Positions 61,544 through 63,756 of a stretch of 64,000 nt of DNA are shown here, piece after piece (position 1 is the stretch's first letter; each line of letters opens with the position of its first letter). The stretch covers positions 4,216,001 to 4,280,000 of the forward strand of contig NZ_AP029028.1 of assembly GCF_037076565.1 (NCBI RefSeq), in the 5' to 3' direction. The notes beneath the pieces were generated by a model. The model was not told where the DNA came from. It saw only the letters and a program-made list of their open reading frames with translations, and ran no database searches. The translations under genes and the position numbers were made by a program. Source of the DNA: Herbaspirillum sp. DW155 (GTDB lineage: Bacteria; Pseudomonadota; Gammaproteobacteria; Burkholderiales; Burkholderiaceae_D).

Positions 61544-63022
61544 TCAGCGTCCATCCGCAAGCGGCGCGGGAAGAGGGGTGACCAGGCCATCGATCTCGAT
61601 GCCGGCGTCGGAAATGTTCATCAGACGGCTGGCACCGTCGTAGCCGTTTTCGCGCAGCTTCATCACCGAAATCTGACGGCGGTTGACGTCATCCTTGACC
61701 ACGTATTCCAGCAGCATCATGTTTTCATACAGCTGCGAGGAACTGGGATCGACCTGGGGCCGCGATTCGCGGAAATACGGCAATTGCTCGGTGATGAAGG
61801 TGGTCACGCCGCGCGCGCGCAGCTCATTGGTCAGCGCCACCAGGAAGGGCCGCATGCGCTGCTGCTGCACCACGATGCTGCGCAGGCCGTCCACGCCATC
61901 GATCAACAGGCGCGTCACGCCGCGCCGGGCGATGTTGTCCAGCATGCGCTTGGCCAGGTCGTCGCACAGCATTTCCAGCGGCAGCTGCCACATCATCTGC
62001 AGGGCACCGCTGTCGATATGTTCATCGAGCTGCATGCCGGCCTTGCGCGCCTTGGCCAGCAGGCGTTCGGGCGATTCGTAGAAGCCCAGGATCAGGCATT
62101 GCTGGCCGTCCTTCAGTCCCTGTTCGATGAAGTGCAGTCCCATGAGCGTCTTGCCCACGCCGGGACTGCCCAAGAGACAGGTCAGCGAACCGCTGACCAC
62201 GCCACCGCCGATGCACTTGTCCCAGGAAGGGATGCCCACGCTGACATAACGGTCCGAGGTGCCCGGCACCTTGCCGGCGCGGGTGGCGGTGGCTTCGAAG
62301 CGCGGGAATATCTCCACGCCGCTCTGGTTGATCTCGAAGACGTGCTTGCCCAGCAGGTGGTTGGCGCCGCGCAGCTTGAAGACCTTGATCTCGCGCACCA
62401 GCTGCATGCCGGATTCGTACTGGCTCAGTTCGATGACGCCATCGACCAGGGTGTTTTCCGACTCGGGCATGTTGCCTTCCACCGGCGAGAGCAGCAGGGT
62501 GGTGCAATGCATGGTGAACACCAGCGAGTTCAGGGAATGCATGAATTCCGACAGGTTCAGGTCCGAGGGCCCCGAATCGCGCACCGAACGGAAACCGTCG
62601 ATGATGAGCATGGCCGGGCGATGGCGGTTCAGTTCGGCGCTGATCAGGCGCAGCAGGCCGCGCAGGCCCTCGCTGGCCAGCGCGCCATAGCCGCTGAGCA
62701 TCTGCATCTGGCCGCCCACCAGGCTCTCGTCGAAGAAGTCAAAATTGCTCACGTGATTGAGCATCTTGGCGTGGGATTCGGCAATGAGCGTCAACAACAT
62801 CACCTTGTTGCCACTGCGCGCCTGGGCAAACCCCACCTGCGAGGCCAGCGTGGTCTTGCCGCTGCCGGCCAGCCCCTGGATCAGATAGAGGCTGCCGGCC
62901 GGCAGGCCACCACCGAGGATCTCGTCGAAACCGGCAATGCCGGTACTGAGCAGCGAGATGCGGCTGGGCCGCGAGGTCGTGACGGCAGCAGCAGCAGGAG
63001 GGAACGGCGGGTGATGATTCAT
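61544..63022 (-). CDS. KaiC-like double RecA/DnaB ATPase
   Basis: A 492-aa protein with two tandem KaiC domains. Walker A motifs are GLAGSGKTT (about 50-58) and GSPGVGKTL (about 281-289); Walker B-type strands are PAMLIIDGF and TRLLIDGVDG. Cyanobacterial KaiC has a Glu pair after each P-loop; here a single Glu is visible at each place (LIAESHA and GFYESPERL). There is no kaiA or kaiB in the window. The start ATG at 63022 lacks a Shine-Dalgarno sequence. A large inverted-repeat element lies between this gene and its likely promoter. Confidence 0.9.
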   Translation of the reverse strand: MNHHPPFPPAAAAVTTSRPSRISLLSTGIAGFDEILGGGLPAGSLYLIQGLAGSGKTTLASQVGFAQARSGNKVMLLTLIAESHAKMLNHVSNFDFFDESLVGGQMQMLSGYGALASEGLRGLLRLISAELNRHRPAMLIIDGFRSVRDSGPSDLNLSEFMHSLNSLVFTMHCTTLLLSPVEGNMPESENTLVDGVIELSQYESGMQLVREIKVFKLRGANHLLGKHVFEINQSGVEIFPRFEATATRAGKVPGTSDRYVSVGIPSWDKCIGGGVVSGSLTCLLGSPGVGKTLMGLHFIEQGLKDGQQCLILGFYESPERLLAKARKAGMQLDEHIDSGALQMMWQLPLEMLCDDLAKRMLDNIARRGVTRLLIDGVDGLRSIVVQQQRMRPFLVALTNELRARGVTTFITEQLPYFRESRPQVDPSSSQLYENMMLLEYVVKDDVNRRQISVMKLRENGYDGASRLMNISDAGIEIDGLVTPLPAPLADGR

Positions 63023-63058
63023 GGGGAAGGAAGACTCGCGTTTTTATTTCGCAAAGGT

Positions 63059-63332
63059 TTAGAACCCATTTCATAAATAGGCGTGAGTGCGAGCGAGTCC
63101 CGTTTGGGATGAAGTGCAAGGCGCGAATTTGGGTCAAGACTGGGCGTCTTGACCCAAATTCGTAACGCAGCAATTCGCCCAAACGGGCCGCTCCCTCCGG
63201 GTTCTGTCCAGAAAGGGCGCTGGCCGCGTTGCACTCCTTGCGTGTGGCACCGCCACACGACGCGTCGCGCGCCTTGCCAGCGCCCTTTCTGGACAGAACG
63301 CATCTCACGCCTATTTATGAAATGGGTTCTAA
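63059..63332 (-). repeat. 274-bp nested inverted-repeat element (three-way-junction fold)
   Basis: The outer arms, 63059-63087 and 63304-63332, are perfect 29-bp inverted repeats (starting TTAGAACCCATTTCAT). Inside are two further palindromic arms. The left arm, 63091-63193, pairs GAGCG, then CCCGTTTGGG (63099-63108 with 63178-63187), then a perfect 17-bp stem (63124-63140 with 63146-63162) closed by TGGGC. The right arm, 63201-63299, has a perfect 23-bp stem (63201-63223 with 63277-63299) and an inner CGTGTGG/CCACACG hairpin. Only 3-8 nt separate the arms, so the whole can fold as a three-way junction in DNA or RNA. Confidence 0.92.
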
Positions 63333-63344
63333 TGAGTTTTCGTC

Positions 63345-63372
63345 ATTATACGTTTGCGTATCACCTGATTAA
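63345..63372 (-). promoter_or_regulatory. Candidate promoter of the KaiC-receiver operon
   Basis: On the minus strand a perfect -10 TATAAT lies at 63345-63350, with a partial -35 (TTAATC, 63367-63372) 16 bp upstream. Transcription would begin around 63338, just before the nested inverted-repeat element, making that element the 5' leader of the KaiC gene. Confidence 0.5.
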
Positions 63373-63712
63373 GGTTGCCGGACAGACCGAAAGTTGCATG
63401 GATCAGAAAAAGAAAAAATCCTGACATCCGCAAAGCCTGGGCGGGCGCGGCCCGATACGACGGCATCTGCCTTGCGTTGCTGAACGCCATGAAAAATTTC
63501 TCGTGAAACAACACCCCCGGACGATCCATACAAGATCAGTGCGAGCGCCCGCATCCCCGCGCCAGAGCTGGCCGCCAGCGGACAGCCGCTGGCCTCGTCG
63601 CGGGTCAGCCTGTCCATACAAGGCCGCCGGCAACGGGCAGAGGACATGCGCAGCCGCAACAGAAAACACCGTTGCCCCCTCCCCCGCGCAGCGATCCCGA
63701 GCACGACTGAAA

Positions 63713-63756
63713 ATAAAAAAGACGCTGTTCCCTCACAAGGAACAGCGTCTTTTTTC
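63713..63756. terminator. Strong bidirectional intrinsic terminator
   Basis: A perfect 11-bp stem GACGCTGTTCC / GGAACAGCGTC with a 7-nt loop is flanked by an A-tract on the left and a T-tract on the right, so it can terminate in either direction. It ends the transporter gene at the window edge. Confidence 0.93.

Follow-up and report, generated by a model that had tools for sequence, protein, structure and literature searches.

A palindrome in the leader of a Herbaspirillum kaiC-like operon is probably a recently inserted MITE with a widespread two-armed core

From comparisons with other copies and with related genomes, we conclude that the nested palindrome in front of a kaiC-like gene of Herbaspirillum sp. 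DW155 is very probably the recent insertion of a small non-coding mobile element, a non-autonomous MITE. We put the probability of the whole explanation, in which a transposase acted in trans and the element inserted at a TA beside the -10 box of the kaiC-like operon, at roughly 0.9. A MITE in a leader is an unremarkable outcome for the question first asked, and the surprise is the core of the element, which is widespread, conserved in shape and found with several kinds of ends. The features that we refer to are listed below, with positions in the window (the whole stretch of 64,000 nucleotides that was analysed).

61544..63022, minus strand: KaiC-like gene, 492 aa, PF06745, whose leader received the insertion
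63060..63061, no strand: TA target duplication, left copy (TA flanks in own-genome copies; empty site in relatives)
63062..63329, plus strand: 268-bp putative MITE (family 1), with 22 near-full own-genome copies; orientation as in alignment A2
63062..63087, plus strand: left terminal inverted repeat, 26 bp, perfect (direct reading and comparison with the 855-bp IS)
63091..63193, no strand: arm A, a hairpin whose stems measure 10 and 17 bp and whose internal loop has CAAGGCGC / AACGC
63099-63108 / 63178-63187: 10-bp stem of arm A
63124-63140 / 63146-63162: 17-bp stem of arm A
63193..63201, no strand: palindromic centre CCCTCCGGG joining arms A and B
63201..63299, no strand: arm B, with a 24-bp stem, internal-loop motifs GCGTTGC / CGCCTTGC and a 7-bp apical hairpin
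63201-63224 / 63276-63299: 24-bp stem of arm B
63241-63247 / 63253-63259: 7-bp apical stem of arm B
63304..63329, minus strand: right terminal inverted repeat, 26 bp, perfect (direct reading and comparison with the 855-bp IS)
63330..63331, no strand: TA target duplication, right copy (TA flanks in own-genome copies; empty site in relatives)
63345..63350, minus strand: -10 box TATAAT of the kaiC-like operon, conserved, upstream of the insertion

The sequence-only reading had described perfect outer arms of 29 nt, and direct reading confirmed them at 63059-63087 and 63304-63332. They are made up of the 26 nt of the element ends, the TA duplication and an outermost T/A pair, which is a chance match because the flanking base differs between copies. 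Its inner stems of 17, 10 and 7 bp stand as described, and the one given as 23 bp is actually 24 bp long. For the 274-base palindrome the predicted minimum free energy is -192.1 kcal/mol; shuffled sequences average -96.1 (sd 4.81), which gives a z of -19.96, and 0 of 200 shuffles reached its fold energy. When searched with a covariance model of arm B (R1, covering 63191-63308), 53 of 100 loci show a match to arm A as well, on the other strand. By this comparison the two arms are homologous and in inverted order; counting the palindromic centre, the whole element is T-shaped and nearly dyad-symmetric. ORFs of 91-189 aa overlap the element, and to judge from where they lie and how long they are, none of them is a transposase.

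On the single 5.47-Mb contig of the host chromosome lie 22 near-full copies of the element, 96-100% identical, plus fragments. The core is 268 bp long in 20 of these copies, and 267 and 266 bp in the other two. TA is present on both flanks of the core in 21 of the 22, the base preceding is C in 11 and the base following is G in 11. By a gene prediction with a home-made codon score, which is crude, no predicted gene runs across the insertion site in 17 of 20 own-genome copies, with 4 of those 17 having no gene predicted nearby at all, and the remaining 3 of the 20 lie inside a predicted frame. Two remnants of about 50 bp (L035:1039-1088 and L036:981-1029) consist of little beyond both terminal repeats and are likely deletions of the entire interior. 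DNA-level matches to the element were found in 32 of 34 genomes of the same genus and in 0 of 27 genomes outside it, and a blastn-level search of PLSDB with the element gave no plasmid match. For alignment A2 we took 42 of the 50 copies fetched from the genus (L111-L160), together with the window copy and L045 from the host genome; left out were L113, L115, L123 and L153 (near-duplicates or not needed), L147, L159 and L160 (232-249 bp), and L158 (no ends found).

The leader of the kaiC-like gene could be compared with 16 Herbaspirillum orthologues that are 75-92% identical to it at the DNA level over the gene. None of the 16 has a match to the element between 700 nt upstream and 70 nt into the gene. 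In the six orthologues whose leaders align best (L082-L085, L087 and L088) the TA is present once, and when the element and one TA are removed, the window leader aligns directly with its nearest relatives (CATTAAACC against CATTAAATC). The TATAAT box is kept in 16 of 17 aligned rows (our own and 15 of the 16 orthologues; L097 differs), as is an upstream box, GCAACTT, about 47 nt beyond it on the minus strand, which is shared by the kaiC-like promoters of the genus and may be an activator site. Since both boxes are conserved and the element is absent from the orthologues, the promoter is old and the element new, and the insertion at this locus is recent. The sequence-only reading had said that kaiC loci lacking the element, together with scattered copies bearing target duplications, would mark it as a mobile repeat and not a leader; we found both.

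The placement of the element in the leader, between the conserved -10 box and the start codon, was nevertheless read correctly. The left edge had been put 37 bp before the start codon, and 36 nt lie between it and 63022. With TATAAT at 63345-63350, the transcript probably starts 6-7 nt downstream of the box, about 6 nt outside the right edge of the element, as had been proposed. We also agree that there is no Shine-Dalgarno site: none was seen before the start codon and, by eye, none is obvious in the aligned orthologues. A pattern scan of 62950-63500 reported no full sigma-70 site and no promoter-like or terminator-like site. At 63715-63755 there is a 17-bp perfect hairpin with a T run at the end on both strands, likely a bidirectional terminator.

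At three sites the element matched with its ends but not with its interior, and these sites proved to hold an 855-bp IS. Two overlapping frames in it match DUF4096 and DDE_Tnp_1 (PF13340 and PF01609), and the NCBIfam model for the IS5 family, NF033580, gave 111.2 and 116.6 bits for its two ORFs against a cut-off of 110. An A7G4 run in the frame overlap suggests frameshifting. This IS may belong to the IS427 subgroup. Its transposase is present in 12 copies in the host genome, and TA lies on both sides of the IS in 10 of the 11 copies with ends read. The right end of the IS is the same as the end of the MITE over 19 nt and the left end agrees over 18 of 20 nt. When the MITE or the IS was used to search DNA, only the ends matched and the interior did not; as far as these searches go, the MITE did not arise by simple deletion from the IS. 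Given the near-identical ends, the 855-bp IS is most likely the mobiliser of the MITE. Among the best eight or fewer candidates per genome, a full-length match of 855 nt was found in at least 2 of the 34 genus genomes (G000 and G008) and fragments in three (G009, G019 and G028); there is also a 75%-identical match in another genus. As a point against the explanation, most genomes that bear the MITE must therefore use, or have used, other transposases.

The same genome has a second MITE family with three copies, the same two-armed layout and different ends. These ends resemble those of a second, single-copy IS of 828 bp; over 119 residues its transposase shares 35% identity with that of the 855-bp IS. 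Among the genomes checked for transposases, ends were paired with an IS in the host genome only. The NF033580 matches in G084 and G337 have no convincing inverted repeats of at least 11 bp around them, and G342, G477, G536 and G020 have no NF033580 match at 1e-10. The left end of the 855-bp IS (L038:176-225) has GGGTCTGTTAAC just inside it, close to the end motif of the other family, and looks like a composite or replaced terminus. At L334:229-1958 the 855-bp IS occurs twice in a nearly head-to-tail arrangement, and the first copy lacks TA flanks. In G084 there are nine dispersed partial matches to the first half of NF033580 (L300, L303, L306, L309, L311, L313, L315, L317 and L319) with no convincing terminal repeats around them; these are relics or something else.

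The element is short and non-coding, with many near-identical dispersed copies, terminal repeats, a target duplication, an empty site and a partner IS, which together are the marks of a MITE. One of the two alternatives in the sequence-only reading was a MITE-like element inserted between promoter and gene, and the copy number, TA duplication, empty sites and partner IS all favour it. We believe that an IS5-family transposase, most likely supplied by the 855-bp IS, acts in trans on the MITE. Comparison with relatives shows that the MITE entered a TA immediately past the -10 box of the kaiC-like operon and that this TA was duplicated. With the start site that we propose, the kaiC leader would have grown from about 46 to about 316 nt and would now open with a two-armed hairpin of great stability. 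If kaiC expression is affected, perhaps by RNase III cleavage or slowed transcription, that would be a side effect of the insertion. The interior of the element is not random: its outer and apical stems stay Watson-Crick while the sequence turns over, and the loop motifs are fixed.

Such a side effect on kaiC expression is possible from the placement in the leader. A stronger proposal is that the MITE has been co-opted locally, with its transcribed hairpin being cut by RNase III or slowing kaiC expression, as has been proposed for NEMIS/Correia elements. The element lies at about +6 of the proposed transcript, so that the kaiC mRNA would begin with it, its hairpin is predicted at -192 kcal/mol, and there is the precedent of NEMIS/Correia in Neisseria (PMC2229807, in the part available to us). 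However, this copy is identical or nearly so to other copies in the genome, which leaves little time for selection on the kaiC insertion, and the region of the start codon is predicted to fold separately from the element. We consider co-option to be rather unlikely.

To see at which level the palindromes are kept, we looked at covariation in the arms. In 44 family-1 copies, 98.3% of pair cells are paired compared with 91.7% in shuffled alignments, and 44 of 96 pairs have changed on both sides. Order-wide, arm B (92 rows) has 91.8% of its cells paired compared with 68.8% when shuffled, and 788 double-change cells compared with 233, in an alignment that was fitted to the model and so leans towards the model structure. 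For the mismatches we used 47 representatives below 85% identity, with two L045 rows of the 92 left out. Their basal and apical helices together have 1039 Watson-Crick, 12 GT and 17 AC cells. The other arm-B helices have GT 2 and AC 4, GT 42 and AC 1, and GT 22 and AC 22; the second of these counts belongs to the helix GCGT/CGCC, which is short, hardly varies and contains a T·G pair. The columns of the internal-loop motifs are kept at 83-100% across the 47 diverged representatives. Alignment A3 held 31 of 33 sequences (L111 and L125 left out), with three further loci having no extract, and alignment A4 combined 75 of the 100 arm-B loci with 16 sources, which came from the window and the genus.

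As a control we took 6S RNA of this order, with 30 copies aligned and folded in the same way. Variable pairs in this control were GT in 17.0% and AC in 2.4% of cases, while order-wide variable pairs of the MITE arm on the plus strand were GT in 3.3% and AC in 3.0%. Some results lean the other way: with the structure called on the minus strand, variable pairs were GT in 6.2% and AC in 2.5% of cases, the GCGT/CGCC helix has its GT 42 and AC 1, all predicted plus-strand pairs, not only the variable ones, have GT 83 and AC 37, and the family-1 arms on the plus strand (antisense to kaiC) have GT 41 and AC 15, although the family-1 terminal repeats show the reverse balance (GT 7 and AC 13). On balance, the alignments suggest that the palindromes are kept at the DNA level, with little G·U excess in the outer and apical stems. 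Strong covariation is no sure sign of RNA in the intergenic hairpins of bacteria, and the balance of G·U and A·C mismatches may help to tell DNA structure from RNA structure.

The core could also be passive, with template switching at DNA hairpins keeping the arms palindromic without any function. There are two cases of the kind of change that this predicts: in L045 (own genome, 605-722) the inner part of arm B has been turned into a perfect palindrome, and in L151, a copy from a relative, the same arm-B segment is inverted. These are typical products of hairpin template switching and we read them as its footprints. Counted by eye, though, only 2 of 44 family-1 rows have been altered by a hairpin-type change, and such correction should erase the imperfect internal loops, yet their motif columns are conserved. 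Loops that are imperfectly paired and still fixed in their motifs are unlike the outcome of simple template correction, and we take them as a sign of selection on a folded core. We therefore think a passive core unlikely.

The other alternative in the sequence-only reading, a dedicated structured leader RNA controlling the KaiC-receiver operon, has in its favour that the element lies inside the proposed transcript, folds extremely well and stands behind a conserved promoter, but we regard it as very improbable because the element is absent from the 16 orthologous kaiC loci compared, 21 other near-full copies lie elsewhere in the genome, and the variable pairs show no G·U excess of the RNA type when the plus strand is read and, when the minus strand is read, an excess smaller than that of 6S RNA. 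Rfam at gathering score gave 0 matches in five loci that bear the element, and in the window region only four miRNA matches far below cut-off. The orthologous loci, Rfam and, with some counts leaning the other way, the strand-wise covariation against the 6S RNA control gave the regulatory RNA no support.

The two-armed core extends well beyond Herbaspirillum. The arm-B covariance model matched at least 85 of 294 genomes in a sample of the taxonomic family (15 of 44 genera), at least 74 of 300 in a sample of the order (43 of 134 genera) and at least 35 of 398 in a sample of the phylum (26 of 213 genera). These counts come from overlapping samples in which each genome had few of its candidates scored, and the E-values of the model are rough. 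Of the 35 matching genomes in the phylum sample, 7 belong to the order, 7 to other orders of the class and 21 to other classes. We read 97 copies in detail (the 100 arm-B model loci minus L253, L254 and L291). Terminal repeats are present in 90, and 82 of these 90 are 259-286 bp long, with a median of 270. Seven have no terminal repeats, four of which are cut by contig ends (L227, L230, L233 and L252). Six of seven further copies from the phylum scan have terminal repeats as well, at 264-279 bp; one is from the order, two are from elsewhere in the class and three are from outside the class. One copy, L188, has about 78 extra bp in the apex of arm A, apparently another palindromic repeat.

Greedy clustering of the ends of these elements over 16 nt gave 13 clusters at 62.5% identity and 20 at both 69% and 75%. 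Depending on the threshold, 7 to 10 clusters have two or more members, so we speak of roughly ten end types. One singleton cluster, L270, is a trimming artefact, and single-linkage clustering chained 84 of the 90 ends together at one threshold. Taken as sequence evidence, this points to a core shared by mobile elements with several end types across many Pseudomonadota, and we infer that the ends have been exchanged between elements and have not simply drifted.

The usual view of MITEs is that they are ISs that have shrunk and whose interior is random. In this case shape and motifs of the interior are conserved across genera and families, and beyond the class by model match with few copies read, while the ends differ among the elements that bear the core, though ends should decide the transposase. 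A tentative reading, which we would place a little short of even odds, is that the core acts as folded DNA (a hairpin or cruciform, in single-stranded or supercoiled DNA) and would aid transposition or persistence with several IS5-like transposases. More speculative, and in our view doubtful, is the fuller version in which the two-armed core around a CCCNNCGGG-like centre would be a common chassis for about ten transposon ends; a host factor or diverse IS5-like transposases would recognise it in its folded DNA form, and it would raise transposition or survival. If the core is functional, it would be a module for transposition or persistence that depends on no single transposase, and the turnover of its stems would offer natural data on how DNA hairpins behave in vivo.

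Our literature search found no recognised description of the element or its ends, in a coverage that takes in few of the subscription journals. In the portion of the 2024 review of prokaryotic MITEs available to us there is no occurrence of Burkholderi or Betaproteobacteri; it mentions Polaromonas once, citing the Polaromonas JS666 genome paper for MITEs (PMC10969869), and a described relative of the element may therefore exist in that genome. Correia/NEMIS elements, as far as the excerpts we had describe them, are 107 and 155 bp long with 24-bp TIRs and form a single stem-loop by 5'-3' pairing (PMC2229807, PMC10969869). The element resembles them in being short and non-coding, in its TIRs and TA at the ends, in having a hairpin transcribed beside genes and in size class. 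It is unlike them in its 268 bp, its different ends and its two conserved arms in place of a single stem, and we did not assign it to Correia/NEMIS for its length and its two arms.

The CIR repeats of Caulobacter and Brucella are about 110 bp long, with GANTC sites and no TIR listed in the section we saw (PMC2229807). Like the element, they have two hairpin arms and a linker and are conserved between species of Alphaproteobacteria (same source), but the arms of the element are enclosed by TIRs and a TA duplication. REPs, according to the parts of two papers that we had, are units of 20-40 bp tied to tyrosine transposases (PMC3733652, PMC2817692). REP/BIME sequences are similar as abundant palindromes between genes, whereas the element differs from REP/BIME-RAYT systems in its TIRs, TA duplications and IS5-type partners. 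The ends of the IS5-family ISs of 855 and 828 bp match those of the two MITE families of the host genome.

Integron attC sites and the hairpins of parvovirus ITRs keep their structure over changing stem sequence, and they act as T-shaped or cross-shaped folded DNA with conserved unpaired bases. For the element this is a likeness and not a membership; no tyrosine recombinase or Rep partner is known for it. If the core is indeed a module recognised by shape, it would be comparable in its logic to integron attC sites.
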